Origin: an uncultured Acidimicrobiaceae bacterium
GTDB lineage: Bacteria > Actinomycetota > Acidimicrobiia > Acidimicrobiales > Aldehydirespiratoraceae
Assembly (NCBI GenBank): GCA_913041415.1
Contig: CAJWHS010000013.1
Location: 1-42,327 of the forward strand
Length of the DNA: 42,327 nucleotides
Direction of reading: 5' to 3'
How positions within the stretch are numbered: position 1 is the first letter of the stretch; each line of letters opens with the position of its first letter. The position numbers were made by a program, and so were the translations under genes. The notes under the pieces were generated by a model. The model was not told the origin of the DNA, did not search any database, and saw only the letters and a list, made by a program, of their open reading frames with translations. Positions 9,159 through 24,239 of the stretch are shown here, piece after piece.

Positions 9159-10463
9159 ATGAACCCACCCGGACTCGCGATTGGTGCACCTCCGATTGGA
9201 TGCAGCGTGCGTGCTGCATCGCGTGATGACCTTCCTCAGGTCATCCGCCTACTGGAGGCTGCGCGTGCAAGTCAGGACCTGCATCTCGACCTCGCTGACG
9301 TCGTTGCCGATCTTGGAGCCGACGACCTCACGGTCGTCGCCGCCGTCGAGAACGATTTAGTCGGCGCGCTGGTCGGCCGTCTCGAGGGTGAGACGGGCCG
9401 CATCTTGGCGATCGTTGTGGCTCCGGAGTGGAGGGACCGTCGTGTCGGCGCAAGTTTGATTGAGTACGCCGAGTCAAGGTTGTTCGGCCGAGGCGCCCGC
9501 AAAGTGACAGCGTTGATCGCCGACGGTCGCGTTGGGTCGCTCAGCCTTGCGGAGCGAGGATTCGAAGCAATCCGAGGGCTGGCTCTTTACGAGAAGGCGG
9601 AGACGATCGAACCCTCAGCGATGTCTGTTCTCCACCGGTGGGGCGGTGAACTTGTGCCGCTCGAACGGTGGGACGAGTTCTCGGGGCTGCGAGCGCAGCG
9701 AGAGGTCGTCGACGAACGGGTGCTTGCGCCGTTGCTTGAATCTGACCTCGCCGAGCGGTTCGGTGTTATTCCCCCGACCACGATGTTGCTCTTCGGCCCA
9801 CCTGGCACCGGTAAGACGTCGTTCGCCAAAGCCGTCGCTGGCCGGTTGGGTTGGCCTTTTGTGGAGATCCTGCCGTCGAAGCTCGGAGCCGAAGGGCTTG
9901 CGATGATGGCGGACGAGCTGCACAACGCCTTCGAGGAGTTGCTCTCGCTCGAGCATGCAGTGATCTTCATTGACGAGGTGGATGATATTGCGAGTTCCCG
10001 AGCCGAACGGCCCGAATCGCAAGCCGTAGTGAACGAACTGCTTAAGGCAGTTGTTCGGATACGTGAGGCCGGCGGCCGGCTGCTCGTGTGCGCCACGAAC
10101 TCGATCGGAAGCCTTGATCCTGCCGTCGTGCGCCCCGGACGGTTTGACCTCGTTCTCCCCGTCGGCCCTCCCGACTCGGAAGCTCGGGCCGCGCTGCTCG
10201 GTGGAATGCTCGAGTCGATTCAATCGTCGGTGGTTGATGCCGCTGACTTTGTCGAGGAGACCGAGGGCCTCACGCCCGCTGACCTCGCCAGTGCAGTCCA
10301 GCGGGCGGCTTCCGACGCCTTTGGTGCTGCCCGACGCGGTGAGCCGGACGCCCAGCTTGACGCGGCGCGCTTCAGGCGGGCTATCCGGGCGACGGTCCCG
10401 ACGATCTCGGCGGACGCGCTGGCAGCCTTCCACCGAGAAGCGGATCGCTTTCAGCGCATCTGA
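9159..10463 (+). CDS. GNAT-AAA+ fusion ATPase
   Basis: A 434-residue two-domain protein. Residues ~15-150 look like a GNAT N-acetyltransferase: an RAASRDDLPQVIRLLE opening, then strand beta4 and the acetyl-CoA loop ILAIVVAPEWRDRRVGASLI, then a SLSLAERGFEA motif. Residues ~175-434 are an AAA+ ATPase of the Cdc48/spastin/FtsH type, with Walker A GPPGTGKTS (213-221), Walker B VIFIDEVDD (268-276) and the second region of homology CATNSIGSLDPAVVRPGRFD carrying the arginine finger. All core ATPase residues are present, so it should hydrolyse ATP as a hexamer. The role is unknown; the acetyltransferase domain may act on, or recognise, a protein client. The ATG at 9159 is the first in frame with the GNAT domain. 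Confidence 0.85.
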   Translation: MNPPGLAIGAPPIGCSVRAASRDDLPQVIRLLEAARASQDLHLDLADVVADLGADDLTVVAAVENDLVGALVGRLEGETGRILAIVVAPEWRDRRVGASLIEYAESRLFGRGARKVTALIADGRVGSLSLAERGFEAIRGLALYEKAETIEPSAMSVLHRWGGELVPLERWDEFSGLRAQREVVDERVLAPLLESDLAERFGVIPPTTMLLFGPPGTGKTSFAKAVAGRLGWPFVEILPSKLGAEGLAMMADELHNAFEELLSLEHAVIFIDEVDDIASSRAERPESQAVVNELLKAVVRIREAGGRLLVCATNSIGSLDPAVVRPGRFDLVLPVGPPDSEARAALLGGMLESIQSSVVDAADFVEETEGLTPADLASAVQRAASDAFGAARRGEPDAQLDAARFRRAIRATVPTISADALAAFHREADRFQRI

Positions 10464-13094: not shown

Positions 13095-14843
13095 CTACCA
13101 GTACTCCTCGTAGTGAATGTTGCCGGGCTGCTTGCGTTTGTCGATCGTGAAGCCCCGCTCGACGAGGAGTTCAACCACGCCGACGGTTGCAGGGAAGACG
13201 CCATCTTCATCGGGAATACCGATCATCGCCGGGTTGCCACACATGAAGACGTGGGTGGTTGCGGGGTCGAGTGAGACTCCCATCCGGGCGAATTCGCCGT
13301 CCTTGATCAGGTCCTGGATGTAGCGCTTCGCGATGTCGGGCTCACGGGTCGGCATCGGCAGGTAGTGATAGTTGTGATGCCGGCGTTCGAGTTCGCGGTG
13401 GGTCTCTTCGTAGCCGAGGTCGATGGAATTACGAACCGATACCGCCGACACGATCGGTCCGTGATGGCCCTTCCGCAGTAGTTCGGTGATCATCGCGTTG
13501 TGCGGGGCCTCGCCGGTGCCGGTTGAGAAGAACATGACGGTGCTGGCCGGATTGGTGATCGAGTCGAGCGTGTAGCGGCCGGCGACCTTGGGACCGAGAT
13601 AGATCCGGTCGCCGGGGCGCTTCAGCGCGAGGCGGGGCGTGAGCTCGGGGATGTTGTCGTCGGTCGGCGGCACGAGGACGATGTAGAACTCGAGCTCGTC
13701 GAGGCCGCCCTCGTCGACGAGATACCCGTGGTCGTCCAGTACACGCGAGCTGATGGAGTACGAGCGGCGGATCAGCTTGAACCAGCGGTCACCCAGGTTC
13801 GGGTCGATGGCCTCGTCGACGCGTTCTTCCCAGTACCCGAGCCCCAGGGTGGCGTACTGCCCCGGGGTGTAGTCGGTGCCGCCATGGTCGGGCTTGACCC
13901 GCAGCACCCAAAGGTCGGAGTGGGCGGGCTCGAAGTGGGTGATCGTAGCGTTGTAGTGCTCCTCGCGGAGTTCCTCGACTGCACCCTCGTGGCGGTGACG
14001 CCGAGTTTTGCGGGGTTGGATGCGTTCAGGGTCGAGCTCCGGGAAGCAAGCGGCCATCTCGAGGCCGATGCGATGGCCGGGCGAGGTCGTGGCCACCGAA
14101 CCCTCGGTTGGTTCACCGAGAAACCAGACGTTTCCGGTAGCGAGCGCCGCCTCGGTGACGCCGCGCTCCTCCGGCGTGAGGTTGCGGCGATGAGACGCGA
14201 TCACGACGTCGTCAAACTGGAGGTCGGGCGTGCGGCGATCGTTGAAGTAGGCCATTGGGAGACCATCGACGTCGTCGATCTCATCGGGCACCGAGCGGTA
14301 GAGCACCGTGATGCGCCGTTCGCGTTCCATGCGGCGCAACGCATTGTCTGCCGCAGGGGACAGGAGATCCGGATCCATGCCACCGGCGGCAAGGACGACA
14401 TTGCCGCCAGCTACGTCTATCGTGGCAGCGAGCTCGACGGCGTGATCGGTGTAGCCAACCACGAGAACGTCGCGTCCCTCGGCGTGCTCTGGCTCGGTGT
14501 CGACCGTGATCGTGGGGAGGTCAGGGAGCGAGATCGGTGGGGTCCAATCCGGCATCGGGGGCCGATGAGCGAGGAGGGCGGCTCGCGCCCGGTAGCGGTG
14601 CCGATTCGTTGTGAGCAACAAGGCGCCGTCGTCCGTGGCGTCGACGGACTCGACGTGCTCGCCGTAGCCGATGTCGAGTTGGTTGTCGCGCACGAGTTCG
14701 GGGAACGTCACGGCGTTGCTGCGGGAGATCAACCGGACTGACTGCACACCCGAACGCTGGGATGAGATCGCAACGCTGAGTCCGCCAGCGGTGCCACCGG
14801 CGACGACGAGGTCGTAGACGAGGTCGAAGTCTTGTTCAGTCAT
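13095..14843 (-). CDS. Thioredoxin-reductase-like/ferredoxin-NADP reductase fusion
   Basis: A 582-residue flavoprotein built of two oxidoreductase modules. Residues ~1-285 resemble thioredoxin-reductase-like proteins: the FAD fold motif VAGGTAGGLSVAISS near residue 15, a second nucleotide-binding motif VLVVGYTDHAVELA, and the closing ATTSPGHRIGLEMA. The redox CxxC of true thioredoxin reductase is absent. Residues ~290-582 are a complete FNR-type reductase with the FAD motif RRSYSISSR, the NADP motif FFSTGTGEAPHNAM, HVFMCGNPAMIG and a C-terminal HYEEYW. It would move electrons between NADPH and ferredoxin or flavodoxin, with the N-terminal half as a regulatory or second flavin module. It could supply the Rieske oxygenases, which have no reductase nearby. 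Confidence 0.82.
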   Translation of the reverse strand: MTEQDFDLVYDLVVAGGTAGGLSVAISSQRSGVQSVRLISRSNAVTFPELVRDNQLDIGYGEHVESVDATDDGALLLTTNRHRYRARAALLAHRPPMPDWTPPISLPDLPTITVDTEPEHAEGRDVLVVGYTDHAVELAATIDVAGGNVVLAAGGMDPDLLSPAADNALRRMERERRITVLYRSVPDEIDDVDGLPMAYFNDRRTPDLQFDDVVIASHRRNLTPEERGVTEAALATGNVWFLGEPTEGSVATTSPGHRIGLEMAACFPELDPERIQPRKTRRHRHEGAVEELREEHYNATITHFEPAHSDLWVLRVKPDHGGTDYTPGQYATLGLGYWEERVDEAIDPNLGDRWFKLIRRSYSISSRVLDDHGYLVDEGGLDELEFYIVLVPPTDDNIPELTPRLALKRPGDRIYLGPKVAGRYTLDSITNPASTVMFFSTGTGEAPHNAMITELLRKGHHGPIVSAVSVRNSIDLGYEETHRELERRHHNYHYLPMPTREPDIAKRYIQDLIKDGEFARMGVSLDPATTHVFMCGNPAMIGIPDEDGVFPATVGVVELLVERGFTIDKRKQPGNIHYEEYW

Positions 14844-16853: not shown

Positions 16854-17606
16854 TCAGCCTCCGATCGGCGAGCCGGACGTGAGGCCACCGTCGATCGTGA
16901 AACAGCTACCGGTCACGAAGGCGGCGTCACCCGACGCGAGATACACGGCGAGCCCGGCAATGTCGTCCGGCGTACCCATGCGGCCAACAGGATGCGCTGC
17001 CGTTGCCTCGGCCCGCGCAGTGGCAGAATCTTCGGCGAGGTCGAAGGCCGCATCAGCGAGAGCCGTCATGATCCAGCCGGGGCTGATCGCATTGCACCGC
17101 ACACCTTGATGGCCGTTATCGGTGGCGATTGCTCGCGTCAGAGCATGCACGGCGCCCTTCGAGGCGTTGTAGATCGCCATCTGGTGATCGGCGATATTGC
17201 CCGCAATCGAGCCGATGTTGATGATCGACCCTCCTGAAGGCTGAGTTGCCATCTGGCGGACCGCAGCACGACAGCAGTTGAAGACGCCGCGGACGTTGAC
17301 GTTCATCACGAGGTCGTAGTCGCCGTCGGTCGTGTCCTCGATCGGTTTCTCGACCTGCACTCCTGCGTTGTTGACGATCGTGTCGAGACGACCGGTTGCA
17401 CCGACCGCAGCAGCGATCAGGGCATCGCACGATGCTGCGTCGGCGACATCGGTCTCGAGCCAGTTGACGCCGTCAAGGGTGACCGGGCGACGGCTGCCGG
17501 CAAAGACGATGGCACTCTCGGCAACGAATCGGGCGGCGACACCCTCACCAATCCCGCTCGACGCGCCGGTTACGATCGTGGTGAGGCCGGCGAGTCGACC
17601 GGTCAC
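16854..17606 (-). CDS. SDR family NAD(P)-dependent oxidoreductase
   Basis: A 250-residue classical short-chain dehydrogenase/reductase, interconverting an alcohol and a ketone with NAD(P). The cofactor motif TGASSGIG is near residue 13, NNAGV near 80, the catalytic Ser in INIGSIAGN, and YNASK supplies the Tyr and Lys. PGWIMT and the C-terminal GSCFTIDGG are also typical. The substrate is not predictable. It overlaps the TetR gene by four bases and is probably its target, forming a two-gene minus-strand operon. Confidence 0.92.
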   Translation of the reverse strand: MTGRLAGLTTIVTGASSGIGEGVAARFVAESAIVFAGSRRPVTLDGVNWLETDVADAASCDALIAAAVGATGRLDTIVNNAGVQVEKPIEDTTDGDYDLVMNVNVRGVFNCCRAAVRQMATQPSGGSIINIGSIAGNIADHQMAIYNASKGAVHALTRAIATDNGHQGVRCNAISPGWIMTALADAAFDLAEDSATARAEATAAHPVGRMGTPDDIAGLAVYLASGDAAFVTGSCFTIDGGLTSGSPIGG

Positions 17607-18178
17607 GCCACGTCTCCGAACGCGATCGACTCGCAGAGCTGAAGGCCTCGCTCGAGCGCGTCTTCGTCAGCCCACCGATTCCAGTTGATCCACAGTCCGT
17701 TTTGGAGCGCGAGCACGTCGGTGGTGCGTCGACCGACGGCATCCGGGCTGAGCGATCGGTCGACGTCCTTGATCGCTGCATTGAGCTGGGCGGCGCATCG
17801 GTCGTAGAGATCGCGCTCGGCGACCGCCACCCCGTCGTTGGCGCAGGAAACGGCCCAGATGGCGAGCCACATCTCGAGGTGATGCGGATCGCTGAACTCC
17901 GGGTCGAACCATGAGCGCAGCGCTGCCTTGACCCGCGCTCGCGGATCGTCGCCGGCCTCCGCCATGCGGTCGTCGATGAGCTGCATCAAGCGTTCGGTGG
18001 CCCGCTGGAAGGCAGCGACGACTAGCTTCTCCTTGCCCTCGAAGTGGTAGCTGAGCAGGCCCAGTGACACGTCGGCCTCCTCGGCGACCGCCCGCATGCT
18101 CGTCGAGTCGAGCCCGTTGCGGACAATGACGTCCATCGCTGCGTCGAGAATCTGTTCCTGGGTCTCGGAGAAATTCAC
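17603..18178 (-). CDS. TetR family regulator (BetI-like)
   Basis: A 191-residue TetR-type regulator. The DNA-binding domain reads QEQILDAAMDVIVRNGLDSTSMRAVAEEADVSLGLLSYHFEGKEKL (residues 7-52), a clear helix-turn-helix. The C-terminal domain is of the BetI/AcrR-like class with LEMWLAIWA. The start is a GTG at 18178; 25 bp separate it from the GTG start of the divergent nitroreductase, so one operator could serve both sides, although I see no strong palindrome in that gap. It overlaps the SDR start by four bases. Confidence 0.9.
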   Translation of the reverse strand: MNFSETQEQILDAAMDVIVRNGLDSTSMRAVAEEADVSLGLLSYHFEGKEKLVVAAFQRATERLMQLIDDRMAEAGDDPRARVKAALRSWFDPEFSDPHHLEMWLAIWAVSCANDGVAVAERDLYDRCAAQLNAAIKDVDRSLSPDAVGRRTTDVLALQNGLWINWNRWADEDALERGLQLCESIAFGDVA

Positions 18179-18203: not shown

Positions 18204-18938
18204 GTGGATCGTTCAGAACTCGACTATAAGCACCCGTATCCGTCGCCCGAACTCGAAGCGGAGCATCCTTTCCGGTCGCTCGATTTTGTCGAGTACCCGC
18301 CCGAGGAGATGGCCGAACGGGCAGCGGTCTTCGAGACCTTGATGGCGCATCGCCGCAGCCCTCGACTGTTCTCGGATCGCCCCGTGCCCCGCAACCTGAT
18401 CGAGTCGGCGATCCGGACCGCATCGACCGCCCCCTCGGGGGCGCATAGGCAGCCCTGGCGTTTCGTCGCCACGTCGGCTCCGGCGGTGAAGCGAGCGATT
18501 CGGGAGGCGGCCGAGGAGGAGGAACGGGTCAACTACCTCGAGAACCGGATGAACGACGAGTGGCAGGAGGCACTGGCTCCCATCGGCACCGATCACCACA
18601 AGGAGTTTCTCGAGATCGCGCCCTGGATCGTCGTGTTGTTCGAGGAGCGCTACGAGGTACGGCCCGATGGTGAGCAGCGGAAGAACTACTACGTGAAGGA
18701 AAGCTGCGGAATCGCCGCCGGACTCTTCGTCGCGGCGGTTCACAACATGGGGCTCGCCACTCTCCCCCACACTCCGTCGCCGATGGCCTTCCTCACCCGC
18801 GTGCTGGCGCGACCAGAGAACGAGCGGCCCTTTGTGATGTTCCCGATCGGCTACCCGCTTCCTGGCGTGAAGGTCCCCGACTTCGACCGGAAGGCCCTCG
18901 ATGAAGTAATGGTGATGGTCGACGAACCGGCCGACTGA
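18204..18938 (+). CDS. Iodotyrosine-deiodinase-like nitroreductase
   Basis: A 244-residue FMN protein of the nitroreductase fold, closest in pattern to the iodotyrosine deiodinase (IYD) branch: YPPEEMAERAAVFETLMAHRRSPR, then IRTASTAPSGAHRQPWRFV, then EEEERVNYLENRM, and a C-terminal PIGYP. IYD removes halogen from mono- and dihalotyrosine with reduced FMN. The substrate lid residues Glu and Tyr of IYD (E-x-x-x-Y) are conserved as Glu107 and Tyr111. The lid Lys expected ~21 residues later appears replaced (ALAPIG at ~123-128). The start is GTG 18204, 25 bp from the divergent tetR. It may dehalogenate another phenol, or be a general reductase. Confidence 0.85.
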   Translation: MDRSELDYKHPYPSPELEAEHPFRSLDFVEYPPEEMAERAAVFETLMAHRRSPRLFSDRPVPRNLIESAIRTASTAPSGAHRQPWRFVATSAPAVKRAIREAAEEEERVNYLENRMNDEWQEALAPIGTDHHKEFLEIAPWIVVLFEERYEVRPDGEQRKNYYVKESCGIAAGLFVAAVHNMGLATLPHTPSPMAFLTRVLARPENERPFVMFPIGYPLPGVKVPDFDRKALDEVMVMVDEPAD

Positions 18939-18957
18939 GCCTTTGTCAGGGGGAACC

Positions 18958-19356
18958 GTGTTGCGTGTTCGGGCCAACCGTGCCGATCGCTTGCTCACCA
19001 TCGAACCAATCATTGGCGATGCGCTCAATGACGGCATCCGCCTGCGAGGCATCGGGCTCGAGAGCCTTGTCGATAAGGATCTCCGCACCCTGCTCAGTGA
19101 GCCGGTTGAGGGTGCATTGAACATTTCTTACTGTGGTGCCGGCTACCTCGCTACCTGCGCTACCGACCTCTGGGCTGCAATCGAAACAGCCTTGCAAGAA
19201 GGGGCACTCGAACTCGGTGACAACCTCTCGAGGTGGCGTCGCAAGGGCATTCGCACCGAATTCATCCCGAATCTGATCCCGGATAACTTCCGGAGTACCA
19301 ACCGGTCCTCGTACCAGCAGGCGCTCGAGTCCGCTCCCGGAGGCTCGGGTTCATGA
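18958..19356 (+). CDS. Hypothetical protein
   Basis: A 132-residue protein of unknown function. I recognise no family. The start chosen is GTG at 18958, with AGGGGGA a few bases upstream; a TTG at 18943 would add five residues. Support for it being real: high-GC third codon positions matching the neighbours, position in the plus-strand run after the nitroreductase, and an ATGA overlap with the thioesterase start at 19353. It has two Cys in SYCGAGYLATC, a WAAIETALQEGALELGD helix and a polar Ser-rich tail. An 83-codon minus-strand frame opposite it is less convincing. Confidence 0.55.
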   Translation: MLRVRANRADRLLTIEPIIGDALNDGIRLRGIGLESLVDKDLRTLLSEPVEGALNISYCGAGYLATCATDLWAAIETALQEGALELGDNLSRWRRKGIRTEFIPNLIPDNFRSTNRSSYQQALESAPGGSGS

Positions 19357-19811
19357 GCGACAAGCAATGGGACGTGGGGCTGCTGACGGAGGCCACCCGA
19401 CAGTTGGTGCCGATGGCTGCGCACACCCGGGTCGAGGTCGTGGAGGCCGAGCGCGGCCGGGTCGTGCTGCGCATGCCCCTCGAGGGCAACGGCAATCACA
19501 TCGGCACGATGTACGCCGGTGCCCTCTTCGCGCTCTGCGAGTTCCCCGGCGGCACCCTCTTCTCGACGACTTTCGATGCGTCGCGATACTACCCGATCGT
19601 CAAAGGTGTAGAAATTTCGTTCCGGAAGTTCGCAGGCACCGACATCACCGTCGAGGCGTCGATGTCGGAGAAGGAGGCCATCCGCATTGCGGCGGCCGCC
19701 GCCGATTATGGCAAGGCCGACTTCGACCTTGTGATGGAACTGAAGGACACCGACGGCAACGTCGTCGCCATCTCGACCAACCGCTACCAGATACGGAGCC
19801 ACGGCGTCTGA
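19353..19811 (+). CDS. Hot-dog fold thioesterase (YiiD_C/PaaI-like)
   Basis: A 152-residue single hot-dog domain. The HIGTMYAGALFALCEFPGG segment (about 50-68) is the characteristic helix of the YiiD_C/DUF4442 thioesterase group, followed by VKGVEISFRKFAGTDITVEASM and a C-terminal NRYQIR strand. Members hydrolyse acyl-CoA or acyl-carrier thioesters, or simply bind acyl chains. The catalytic acid may be the Glu of ALCEF. It starts at ATG 19353, overlapping the hypothetical gene's stop, and is followed by the M24 gene, so the plus-strand genes from 18204 on may share a transcript. Confidence 0.82.
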   Translation: MSDKQWDVGLLTEATRQLVPMAAHTRVEVVEAERGRVVLRMPLEGNGNHIGTMYAGALFALCEFPGGTLFSTTFDASRYYPIVKGVEISFRKFAGTDITVEASMSEKEAIRIAAAAADYGKADFDLVMELKDTDGNVVAISTNRYQIRSHGV

Positions 19812-19874: not shown

Positions 19875-21065
19875 GTGTCCGGACTGATCGAACTCCTGCC
19901 ATCGCCTGAGATCGACGAGAACCTTCTCGCCGCTGAGCGGCTCGAGAATCTGCGGGGCACCATGCTGGCCGACGGTCTCCAGCTCCTCGTTCTCACCAAT
20001 CCGGTGAGTATCCGCTACGCCACCGGCTGCCGGGCGTACTCCGCCTTCCAGTCACGGATCCCCTCGGCCTACGCCATCGTGCCCCTTGTTGGTCCGATCA
20101 TCATGCACGGTGCCTACATCGAGGATCTCGCCTTCGTCGAGGTCTCCCGGCGCTCGCACGCCATCACGAGTTTCGACGCCGGCCTCGATCTCTCGATCGC
20201 CGCCGACCGCTTCGCCGCCGATATCGAACGAGCGCTCACAGAGCTCGGCTACGACTCCCGTGACTCGATCGGCATCGAACGCACCACACCGACCGGGCAC
20301 CGCGCCTTCGCCGATATCGGCCTCAACGTCTTCGACGCGGAGCCGACCATCGAGCTCGCCCGCAGCCGCAAATCTGGTCTTGAGATGGTGGCGCTCGACT
20401 ACTCGATTGCCGTCGCCGAATACGGGATGACGCTGATGGAGCGGGCGCTCGAACCTGGCGTCACCGAAAACCAACTGTTAGCCCTGCTGCACCAAACCAA
20501 CGTCGCCCACGACGGTGACTGGATCGACGGCCGCATGCTGTGCTCCGGCCCCCGAACCAACCCCTGGTACCAAGAGGCGAGTCACCGCAAGATCCAACAG
20601 GGCGACATGGTCGCCTTCGACACCAACATGATCGGCCCGTACGGCTACTGCGCCGACATCTCTCGTACCTGGGTCTGCGGCGACGCCCCGACCCCCGACC
20701 AGCGGGATCTCTACAAACGCGCACTCGAGGAGATCTGGTACAACACGTCCCTCCTGCACGTCGGCGCTTCGTTTGCCGAGCTCTCGCAGAACGCCTATCG
20801 CCAGCCCGATGCGTACGCCGCCAACCGCTACGCCTGCGTGTACCACGGCGTCGGCATGAGCGGTGAGTATCCAAAGATCCCCTACCCCCAGGACTGGGAA
20901 TGGACCGGATACGACGGAGAACTCGAGGACGGTGTCGTGCTGTCTGTCGAGTCCTATATCGGGGTGGAGGGTGGACCGCAGGGGGTCAAGCTCGGGCAGA
21001 TGGTGCGAGTGACCTCAGGCGGGGTCGAGGTCTTGTCGAGCTATCACTTCTGGGCTCCTTCCTGA
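19875..21065 (+). CDS. DddP-like M24 metallopeptidase-fold protein
   Basis: A 396-residue pita-bread (M24) protein. Residues 1-160 form the creatinase-type N-terminal domain; the catalytic domain follows. Its C-terminal half (FDTNMIGPYGYCADISRTW, CVYHGVGMSGEYPKI, VVLSVESYIG) resembles DddP, the iron-dependent DMSP lyase of marine bacteria, more than Xaa-Pro peptidases. Of the DddP ligands, Asp249, Asp261, His324 and Glu359 are kept, at near-identical spacing. Three positions are changed: Asn251, Gly374 (last metal Glu) and Gly330 (catalytic Asp). DMSP cleavage is therefore unlikely without other compensation. GTG 19875 is the chosen start, because upstream codons lack homology; a TTG at 19812 is possible. 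Confidence 0.78.
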   Translation: MSGLIELLPSPEIDENLLAAERLENLRGTMLADGLQLLVLTNPVSIRYATGCRAYSAFQSRIPSAYAIVPLVGPIIMHGAYIEDLAFVEVSRRSHAITSFDAGLDLSIAADRFAADIERALTELGYDSRDSIGIERTTPTGHRAFADIGLNVFDAEPTIELARSRKSGLEMVALDYSIAVAEYGMTLMERALEPGVTENQLLALLHQTNVAHDGDWIDGRMLCSGPRTNPWYQEASHRKIQQGDMVAFDTNMIGPYGYCADISRTWVCGDAPTPDQRDLYKRALEEIWYNTSLLHVGASFAELSQNAYRQPDAYAANRYACVYHGVGMSGEYPKIPYPQDWEWTGYDGELEDGVVLSVESYIGVEGGPQGVKLGQMVRVTSGGVEVLSSYHFWAPS

Positions 21066-21137: not shown

Positions 21138-21156
21138 TCCTGGGGTGGAGGGCCGC

Positions 21157-22134
21157 ATGCAAACCGATACCCGCCCTGCGGAGATCCCGGCGCCCAACAA
21201 GCGCTCGATGAGCGAGACTACGGCCACGCTCCTTGTCGTCGTGACGTCGATCATGATGGGCTCGGTGCCGGTGTTCGCTCGTGAACTCACCGACGCCGGC
21301 CTGAGTGCCGTGTCGGTGAGCTTCTACCGCAACCTGCTCGGGGCGTTCGTGCTCTTCCGCCTGTTGCGCTTTGATGCCGCTCGCCGGAGCGCAACTCTGT
21401 GGGCGCTCGGCGCCGGGTTCGGCATGGGCCTTGGCTGGACGGCCTTCGTGCGCGCCGTTGAGGTGGTCCCCGTCTCGACCGCGGGCGTCATCTATATGAG
21501 CTACCCGCTTTTCGCGATCGTTTTGGCCTGGGTGCTGTTCCGAGAGACCCCGACCCGACGCGAAATGGTCTCCGCCATGATCGTGCTTTTGGCCTCGGTC
21601 GTCGCGATGGGGCCCGACCTCGGGGGCGAGACCGAAGTGATGGTCGTCGCGTTCCTCGCACCCCTCTCTTTCGGGTTTGCTGTCGCAGTGCTGACCGGAC
21701 GGTTGGCGTCGTTGCGTCCAATCGAGCGGGTCGCTCCGATCGCATTCGGCTCCACCATCGGCCTGCTCCCGGTCATGGCAACTCAGCCGTTCAACGCGTC
21801 GATCCCGTCGGGCCTATCGACGTGGGTGCTGGCCTTCGGCATCGCATTGTTCACCGCGCTCGGGCCACAGTGGATGTACTCGTCGGCGGCACCTTGCGTC
21901 GGCCCTGCCCGCGCTGCGGTTGCCGGCTCGGTCGAGCTGCCGATGATGTTCCTCGTTGGCTACGTCTGGTTCGATGAGGCGCTCACCTGGCAGCAAGGTC
22001 TCGCCGGTCTCATGGTGCTCGGGGCCATCCTGCTCGTTCCGTCTCGTCCGTCTCCGGGCCTCGCCATGGTCCGGCGCAAGCGGCGCCTAAGTTTGGGACG
22101 CCATTACCCGATATCCGTCGAGACTTCGCCATGA
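21157..22134 (+). CDS. EamA/DMT superfamily transporter
   Basis: A 325-residue inner-membrane protein with about ten transmembrane helices in two EamA repeats. Examples are LLVVVTSIMMGSVPVF at the N-terminus, VIYMSYPLFAIVLAWVLFRE at the end of repeat 1, and SVELPMMFLVGYVWFDEALTWQQGLAGLMVLGAILL at the end of repeat 2. Such carriers exchange or export metabolites such as amino acids or nucleotide derivatives; the substrate is unknown. The ATG at 21157 has GGTGGAGGG in front. Its stop overlaps (ATGA) the start of a dehydrogenase stub, so a second gene of the operon seems to have been lost. Confidence 0.88.
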   Translation: MQTDTRPAEIPAPNKRSMSETTATLLVVVTSIMMGSVPVFARELTDAGLSAVSVSFYRNLLGAFVLFRLLRFDAARRSATLWALGAGFGMGLGWTAFVRAVEVVPVSTAGVIYMSYPLFAIVLAWVLFRETPTRREMVSAMIVLLASVVAMGPDLGGETEVMVVAFLAPLSFGFAVAVLTGRLASLRPIERVAPIAFGSTIGLLPVMATQPFNASIPSGLSTWVLAFGIALFTALGPQWMYSSAAPCVGPARAAVAGSVELPMMFLVGYVWFDEALTWQQGLAGLMVLGAILLVPSRPSPGLAMVRRKRRLSLGRHYPISVETSP

Positions 22135-22196
22135 TTACCATCTTCTTCCTCGGTGCCGGCCATACGGGTGGTGGCATGGCCTCGAAGATGACTAGT
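22131..22196 (+). pseudogene. 5' stub of an NAD(P)-binding dehydrogenase gene
   Basis: The ATG at 22131 overlaps the transporter stop. The first ~20 codons read MITIFFLGAGHTGGGMASKM, a Rossmann beta-alpha-beta start with GxGxxGxxMA as in 3-hydroxyisobutyrate-type dehydrogenases. After that the frame runs into the antisense of the next gene's 3' end and is nonsense. The stub stops almost exactly where the convergent SDR gene ends (22192). It looks like the remnant of a deletion that removed the rest of a coupled gene. Confidence 0.5.
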
Positions 22197-23084: not shown

Positions 23085-24239
23085 ATGATGACCTCTCATG
23101 AGCGTGTCGATGTCGCTGTCATCGGCCGGGGCCTGATCGGCTCCGGCGCCGGACGCCATCTCGCCGAGTCCGGCCGGTCGGTGGCGCTGATCGGGCCGGG
23201 AGAACCATCCGACTGGAACGCGTCCGGGGGGCCGTTCTCGTCCCATCATGACCAGGGCCGCATTACCCGCGTCGCCGGCCGCAACGCGATGTGGACCGAA
23301 GTAGCCGCCCTCGCCTGTGCCCGATATGCCGACATCCAGGCCCGCTCCGGAATCGGATTCCACACCCCACGGGGTGTGCTCGTCGCCTATCCCGACGCCG
23401 CCGACTGGGTCGACCGAGCCGAGCACTGGGGGAGCGACGCCCGCCTCGTCGACCCGGACTGGGTACGGAGTGAAACGGGCGTCGCCATCGAGAACGGGCT
23501 GGACATCGCGTTCGAGGGAGCGCCGGCCGGCCACATCAACCCGCGACGCCTCGTCGCCGCGCAGACCCGCCTCACCGAACTCGCAGGAGGCGCAGTGATC
23601 GACGACGCTGTGCGAGCAGTCGAGCGTCGCAACGGTGGTTTCGAACTCTCCGGAGCGTTCGGATCGATCATGGCCGATCGAATCCTCGTGTCGACCGGTG
23701 GCTTCGGTTCGGAACTCTTCGACTGGAAACTCGATGTTGCGCGCCGGGCCCGCACCATCGTGATGGCCCGCCTCGCTGACGACGGTCGGATTCCCAGCCT
23801 GATCCTCGACCAGCCGCCGGACGACCGGATCTTGGAGGTCTACTGGGTGCCCCCGGTGGAGTATCCCGACGGCTCGGTCCGCATCAAGATTGGCGGCAAC
23901 ATGAAGGACACGATCCTTCTCAAGCCCGAGGAGCTCGTCGACTGGTTCCACGGTGACGGCGATCCAGCCGAGATCGACTGCCTTCGCAACAACCTCGGCG
24001 CCCTCTTGCCCGATGCGTCGCTCGGCGATGTCGCCACTCAGCCGTGCGTCATCACTGGGACTTCGACCGGGATGCCCTACATCGGCATGGTCGACGACGG
24101 CATCGGCGTCGTGATCGCCGGCAACGGCTCGGCCGCGAAATCGAGTGACGAACTTGGGCGACTCGGCGCCTCACTCTTCGGCGAGGCCGGCTGGGACTCT
24201 GGACTCGACCCGTCTCTCTTCACGCCACAGTTCGGCTGA
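23085..24239 (+). CDS. FAD-dependent oxidoreductase, monomeric sarcosine oxidase-like
   Basis: A 384-residue amine-oxidising flavoprotein of the DAO family. The dinucleotide motif VAVIGRGLIGSGAGRHLAESG opens it. SSHHDQGRITR resembles the SSHGxxRIxR segment of monomeric sarcosine/N-methyltryptophan oxidases, and ILVSTGGFGSELF is the ATG-like strand. Near the C-terminus PCVITGTSTGMPYIG has a Cys at the place of the covalent FAD-linking Cys in those enzymes. The likely reaction is oxidative removal of a methyl or amino group from a secondary amine, producing peroxide. ATG at 23085 or 23088. The stop directly abuts the convergent TauE gene. Confidence 0.85.
   Translation: MMTSHERVDVAVIGRGLIGSGAGRHLAESGRSVALIGPGEPSDWNASGGPFSSHHDQGRITRVAGRNAMWTEVAALACARYADIQARSGIGFHTPRGVLVAYPDAADWVDRAEHWGSDARLVDPDWVRSETGVAIENGLDIAFEGAPAGHINPRRLVAAQTRLTELAGGAVIDDAVRAVERRNGGFELSGAFGSIMADRILVSTGGFGSELFDWKLDVARRARTIVMARLADDGRIPSLILDQPPDDRILEVYWVPPVEYPDGSVRIKIGGNMKDTILLKPEELVDWFHGDGDPAEIDCLRNNLGALLPDASLGDVATQPCVITGTSTGMPYIGMVDDGIGVVIAGNGSAAKSSDELGRLGASLFGEAGWDSGLDPSLFTPQFG

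Follow-up and report, generated by a model that had tools for sequence, protein, structure and literature searches.

Does a gene that closely resembles dddP, and departs from it in the active site, still encode a DMSP lyase, an enzyme with a new activity, or a protein in which catalysis has been lost? The gene is a close cousin of the DMSP-cleaving enzyme and comes from a marine actinobacterium, within the stretch of DNA of 42,327 nucleotides analysed here (the window). Among bacterial DMSP lyase genes, dddP is the one met most often in the ocean, accounting for ~65% of ddd genes in a Tara analysis (PMC10686828), and the window gene risks being mistaken in gene surveys for a source of the climate-active gas DMS. 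The genus provides a compact natural experiment, in which intact and altered copies are nearly identical and a pathway deletion adjoins the gene. By comparing these copies, we consider it marginally probable that the window protein is a nascent pseudoenzyme, one that gave up DddP-type catalysis once its pathway had gone and retained the fold.

Identity and fold of the window protein

The window belongs to contig 13 of a 2.68 Mb Acidimicrobiales MAG (G000, 96.9% complete), whose relatives carry the names Acidimicrobiales or Acidimicrobiaceae. The ORF has a GTG start at 19875 (the homologous start codon is ATG in two relatives) and a stop at 21065, and its product combines the Creatinase_N and Peptidase_M24 domains.

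19875-21065, + strand: catalysis-altered DddP-like M24 protein, 396 aa; PF00557 at 100 bits (cut-off 23)

The closest known structures by sequence are the RlDddP/RdDddP chains 4s01, 4rzy, 4s00 and 4b28 (E ~1e-56, ~32% identity), with peptidase matches far behind (E ~1e-7). The same DddP entries, with their two-domain M24 fold, took the top four places in a Foldseek search with the AlphaFold model (pTM 0.80, pLDDT 75; residues 327-346 of low confidence). The placement with DddP rather than in a known peptidase clade, as proposed in the earlier note on this DNA, is thereby borne out. An M24 peptidase identity was rejected on its much weaker sequence and fold matches, and on Gly374 standing in place of the last Glu of the five-ligand dinuclear site; assignment to DoeA failed on similarly weak matches in both respects. 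Creatinase, also of the M24 fold and metal-free, shares with the window protein a pita-bread fold lacking the usual metal set, but the structural match of its entries (1chm, 1kp0, 7yto) to the window model is weaker than that of DddP, and it is absent from the phmmer matches at E<=0.001. A search of viral contigs found no relatives.

With the DddP DMSP lyase the protein shares the fold, the domain order, all active-site spacings and the equivalents of D295, D307, H371, E406 and Y366. It differs by its ~32% identity, by D297N, D377G and E421G, and by a score of 247 bits (E 2.8e-73) on the NCBIfam DddP model (NF043017), which misses the cut-off of 600 bits. Since even the intact orthologs reach just 267 bits on this model, the clade in its entirety counts as DddP-like and not as DddP proper. 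Contig 94 of the same genome carries another DddP-like gene, which is intact (36% identical, 412 bits).

Active-site residues in the window and its relatives

Residues were mapped by alignment to the four RlDddP/RdDddP chains, taking as the active site eight positions: the ligands D295, D297, D307, H371, E406 and E421, together with D377 and Y366. All features below are on the + strand, identified from the alignment, with codons compared at the three replacements and residues compared at Tyr319.

20619-20621: Asp249, equivalent to metal ligand D295, kept
20625-20627: Asn251 (AAC) replacing metal ligand D297 (GAC in relatives)
20655-20657: Asp261, equivalent to D307, kept
20829-20831: Tyr319, equivalent to Y366, kept in the window; Ser in G203 and G204
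20844-20846: His324, equivalent to H371, kept
20862-20864: Gly330 (GGT) replacing the proposed general base D377 (GAT/GAC in relatives)
20949-20951: Glu359, equivalent to E406, kept
20994-20996: Gly374 (GGG) replacing metal ligand E421 (GAG in relatives)

The ligand spacing given in the earlier note (249, 251, 261, 324, 359 and 374 for 295, 297, 307, 371, 406 and 421 of RlDddP) agrees exactly with this alignment, and the three differing positions that it named are real. Four of the six DddP ligands are still present, D297N and E421G being the exceptions; the catalytic base D377 is missing (Gly330), and Y366 is retained. Among DddP lyases all six metal ligands are invariant, and alanine at any single one of them inactivates RnDddP; D377 is the favoured base, with Y366 as the alternative, and D297 is lacking in methionine aminopeptidases (Hehemann et al., PMC4108388). 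Two of the reference entries are mutants at the candidate bases (D377N in 4s01, Y366A in 4s00). Given the inactivating ligand mutants and the role of D377, the window protein would not be expected to act as a DddP-type lyase. With the equivalents of D307, H371, E406 and D295 present, it may still bind one metal.

These replacements justify the earlier warning that automated annotation could mistake the protein for a DMSP lyase, as its NCBIfam E-value is highly significant although the score is below cut-off. In a 2026 survey, dddP was assigned to Acidimicrobiia by hmmscan at E<=1e-30 combined with a similarity threshold (PMC13280387). The window protein passes this E-value cut although residues essential to DddP are missing from it, and a check of all eight active-site positions is advisable in surveys.

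Within the genus, the full set DDDHDEE is found in the orthologs of G118 (L003, 95% identical) and G198 (L007, 94%). The G200 ortholog (93%) carries D330Y and E374K, and that of G204 (77%) carries D251N, D330A and Y319S; in G203 (75%) D297, D377 and all ligands are present, and the Y366 position has changed (Y319S). This sample consists of six orthologs, all from MAGs, so that numbers are small, and the lineages, having a common history, are not fully independent. All eight residues are present in 26/26 orthologs outside the genus. Across 96 other DddP-like homologs the D295, D297, D307 and H371 positions are invariant, with E406 and E421 likewise conserved in 95/95 homologs with data; ordinary family variation was therefore ruled out as the origin of the ligand replacements. 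The D377 position is more permissive, with Gly in 17, Asn in 3 and Thr in 3 of the 96 homologs, which form separate subfamilies with full metal sets.

The history of the changes was read from direct comparison of codons and residues. Codon 330 changed from GAT to GGT in the window and to TAT in G200, and codon 374 from GAG to GGG and to AAG, respectively; a single step separates every derived codon from the intact one, and two steps separate it from its counterpart in the other lineage. On this comparison, the replacements in the two lineages, whose relationship is weakly resolved (support 68), are independent single nucleotide steps. The codons of the window and G118 differ synonymously in 76 cases and nonsynonymously in 21 (dN/dS 0.07). 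The window-lineage protein as a whole has dN/dS of 0.07-0.10, against 0.05 among intact relatives and ~0.03 to 0.15 for neighbouring genes, which is similar; the loss could fall anywhere along each branch, purifying selection is undatable relative to it, and most synonymous change may be older. Reading frames are open in all copies, and the altered ones contain no indel or stop.

At the 70 positions invariant in the 26 outside orthologs, G118 and G198 have 0 changes and the window has five (D251N, H289Y, D330G, E374G and P391H), three of them in the active site; both changes of G200 (D330Y and E374K) are active-site ones. When the three altered lineages are pooled, 7/24 active-site residues have changed compared with 3/186 other invariant residues (Fisher p=1e-5). 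An unconstrained residue is expected to change with a probability of ~0.3 along the branches of the window and G200, and of 0.5 along that of G204, which is longer. The active site thus changes at a roughly neutral rate, as though freed of constraint, with the remainder of the protein held. In G203 and G204 the loss of Y366 preceded their divergence (dS ~0.6), since when both frames have stayed open with dN/dS of 0.11. Judged from these comparisons, the loss of catalytic residues is recent and recurrent within the genus.

Gene neighbourhood and ancestral function

The surroundings of the DddP-like gene in the window are as follows.

16854-17606, - strand: SDR oxidoreductase adjoining the regulator
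17603-18178, - strand: TetR regulator with BetI-type C-terminal domain, divergent
18204-18938, + strand: nitroreductase-family gene, conserved neighbour
19353-19811, + strand: DUF4442/thioesterase-like gene, upstream of the DddP-like gene
21154-22134, + strand: EamA-family transporter, the next gene; its linkage to the DddP-like gene recurs in a second genus
22131-22195, no strand assigned: deletion scar, HIBADH-like stub joined to MR_MLE tail
23085-24239, + strand: DAO-family (N-methyl amino acid oxidase-like) gene, conserved neighbour

The orthologs of L003 and L007 share with the window 94-95% identity and the same gene neighbourhood, and differ in their full active site and in the genes that follow. 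In these two genomes (G118 and G198) the order is nitroreductase, thioesterase, DddP-like, EamA, HIBADH-like, class II aldolase and MR_MLE (enolase superfamily), whereas the window lacks 2.7 kb seen in L003, which hold the last three genes. What is left is a ~50 bp 5' stub of the HIBADH-like gene (22131-22180) and the last 6 MR_MLE bases (22190-22195, GACTAG). The deletion in G200 begins just past the DddP-like gene, extends over EamA as well and spares the final 205 bases of MR_MLE (L111 10412-10616). Because the breakpoints differ, neither deletion can be derived from the other, and the two are independent.

No orthologs of the HIBADH, class II aldolase and MR_MLE genes were found elsewhere in G000, G200, G203 or G204. 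In other families, HIBADH and MR_MLE orthologs lie near each other in several genomes with an intact DddP-like ortholog. In the second genus the nitroreductase, DddP-like, EamA and DAO genes occur together and MR_MLE is absent, with the active site intact, so by this comparison the three downstream genes are associated with an intact active site and not required for it. A strict rule by which absence of the downstream genes entails loss of the metal site is broken by G203, where all ligands are kept and Y366 is lost.

Several further features of the locus were recorded. Positions 18943-19356 of the window contain a remnant of a penicillin amidase-family gene (C-terminal part), which is intact in G200 (849 aa, L111:6084-8633) and leaves a weaker trace in G118 and G198 (35% identical). 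In G203 and G204 an Asp-Ser repeat protein is encoded after the DddP-like gene, at contig ends (L112:1-486, L113:1-430), and the EamA gene is on a different contig. Farther upstream in the window, one 434-aa ORF (9159-10463) fuses a GNAT acetyltransferase domain with an AAA ATPase domain, and a gene at 13095-14843 (- strand), syntenic across the genus and in the second genus, fuses a pyridine nucleotide-disulphide oxidoreductase-like half to a ferredoxin-NADP reductase-like half.

Synteny outside the family is poor, and the only recurring neighbours are of methylated-amine type: the genes close to the orthologs of other genera encode glycine-betaine-monooxygenase-like Rieske proteins, dimethylglycine/sarcosine dehydrogenase-like proteins and a HisC-like aminotransferase. 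The window itself has the BetI-type TetR regulator and the N-methyl amino acid oxidase-like DAO protein. From this gene context it is plausible that the ancestral enzyme acted in the breakdown of methylated amines or betaine, with DMSP a possible substrate of the intact forms. The suggestion of a sulfonium- or betaine-like substrate in the earlier note thus gains some support for the ancestor, though not as a new activity of the window protein. DmdA-like proteins in G000 (C62, C12, C2) score 341-379 bits, below the cut-off of 410. Compensation through loss of another DMSP gene was rejected, as DmdA-like matches below cut-off are present in all six genomes without pattern.

Proposed loss of catalysis and its alternatives

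By sequence comparison the window protein bears one mark of a pseudoenzyme, a catalytic motif lost within an otherwise conserved fold. Once the downstream pathway was gone, turnover would have become useless or harmful, and for this reason the constraint on the catalytic residues would have been lifted. In a protein that has given up its two metals, replacement of the clustered carboxylates may even increase stability; with the rest under purifying selection, what would be left is a non-catalytic role, for instance in ligand binding or in dimer assembly. More tentatively, as a possibility to which we give limited credence, three sister lineages may in parallel have arrived, after pathway loss, at a stably kept protein with a selected role, either non-catalytic or mononuclear and of non-DddP type; this would amount to an M24 pseudoenzyme being born inside a single marine genus. 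The M24 pseudoenzymes PA2G4/Ebp1 (e.g. LmaPA2G4, PMC3888471) likewise show the M24 fold persisting after catalytic competence is lost; they are eukaryotic and related to methionine aminopeptidases, while the parent of the window protein is DddP-like and its loss is recent and recurrent in one genus.

It is rather doubtful, but deserves weight, that the ORF is instead a pseudogene in the making, dispensable after the downstream deletion and still free of stops and frameshifts, with the active-site replacements as the first visible damage. Such early decay would fit the scars of independent neighbour-gene deletions in the window and G200, the penicillin amidase remnant at the same locus and the slightly raised dN/dS of the window lineage. 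Neutral changes should scatter, however, and those observed are concentrated in the eight active-site residues, repeatedly in each lineage; moreover, indels and stops are absent from the altered copies, and the G203 and G204 frames have survived the early loss of Y366. That the changes are technical, arising in MAG assembly or in the calling of the consensus, is very improbable: all six genus members are MAGs, but three separately deposited ones are altered at the same functional positions in otherwise conserved sequence, the G200 and G204 sequences are identical from two collections, and random error would not single out catalytic codons.

An altered but active enzyme is unlikely in our estimate. 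Its dinuclear site, with D297 and E421 gone, would have become mononuclear (D307/H371/E406) or, like that of creatinase, metal-free, with new or relaxed chemistry, as could be argued from the presence of D295, D307, H371, E406 and Y366 equivalents, from conserved neighbours that suggest methylated-amine metabolism, and from the D377 position, which varies in full-ligand subfamilies and so can change with function. The replacements nevertheless vary by lineage (G/Y/A at 330, G/K at 374), a better fit to loss than to a defined chemistry; they are recent, arising among relatives of which those 95% identical are intact, and for the pathway genes downstream the record is one of loss, not gain. Hence the new activity proposed in the earlier note gives way to a picture that looks like lost catalysis. 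Better candidates for new chemistry on the DddP fold would be the subfamilies with a variant D377 position and six ligands, in which Gly, Thr or Asn occupies that position (the groups of L038, L066 and L070; of L086, L099 and L100; and of L021, L044 and L045).
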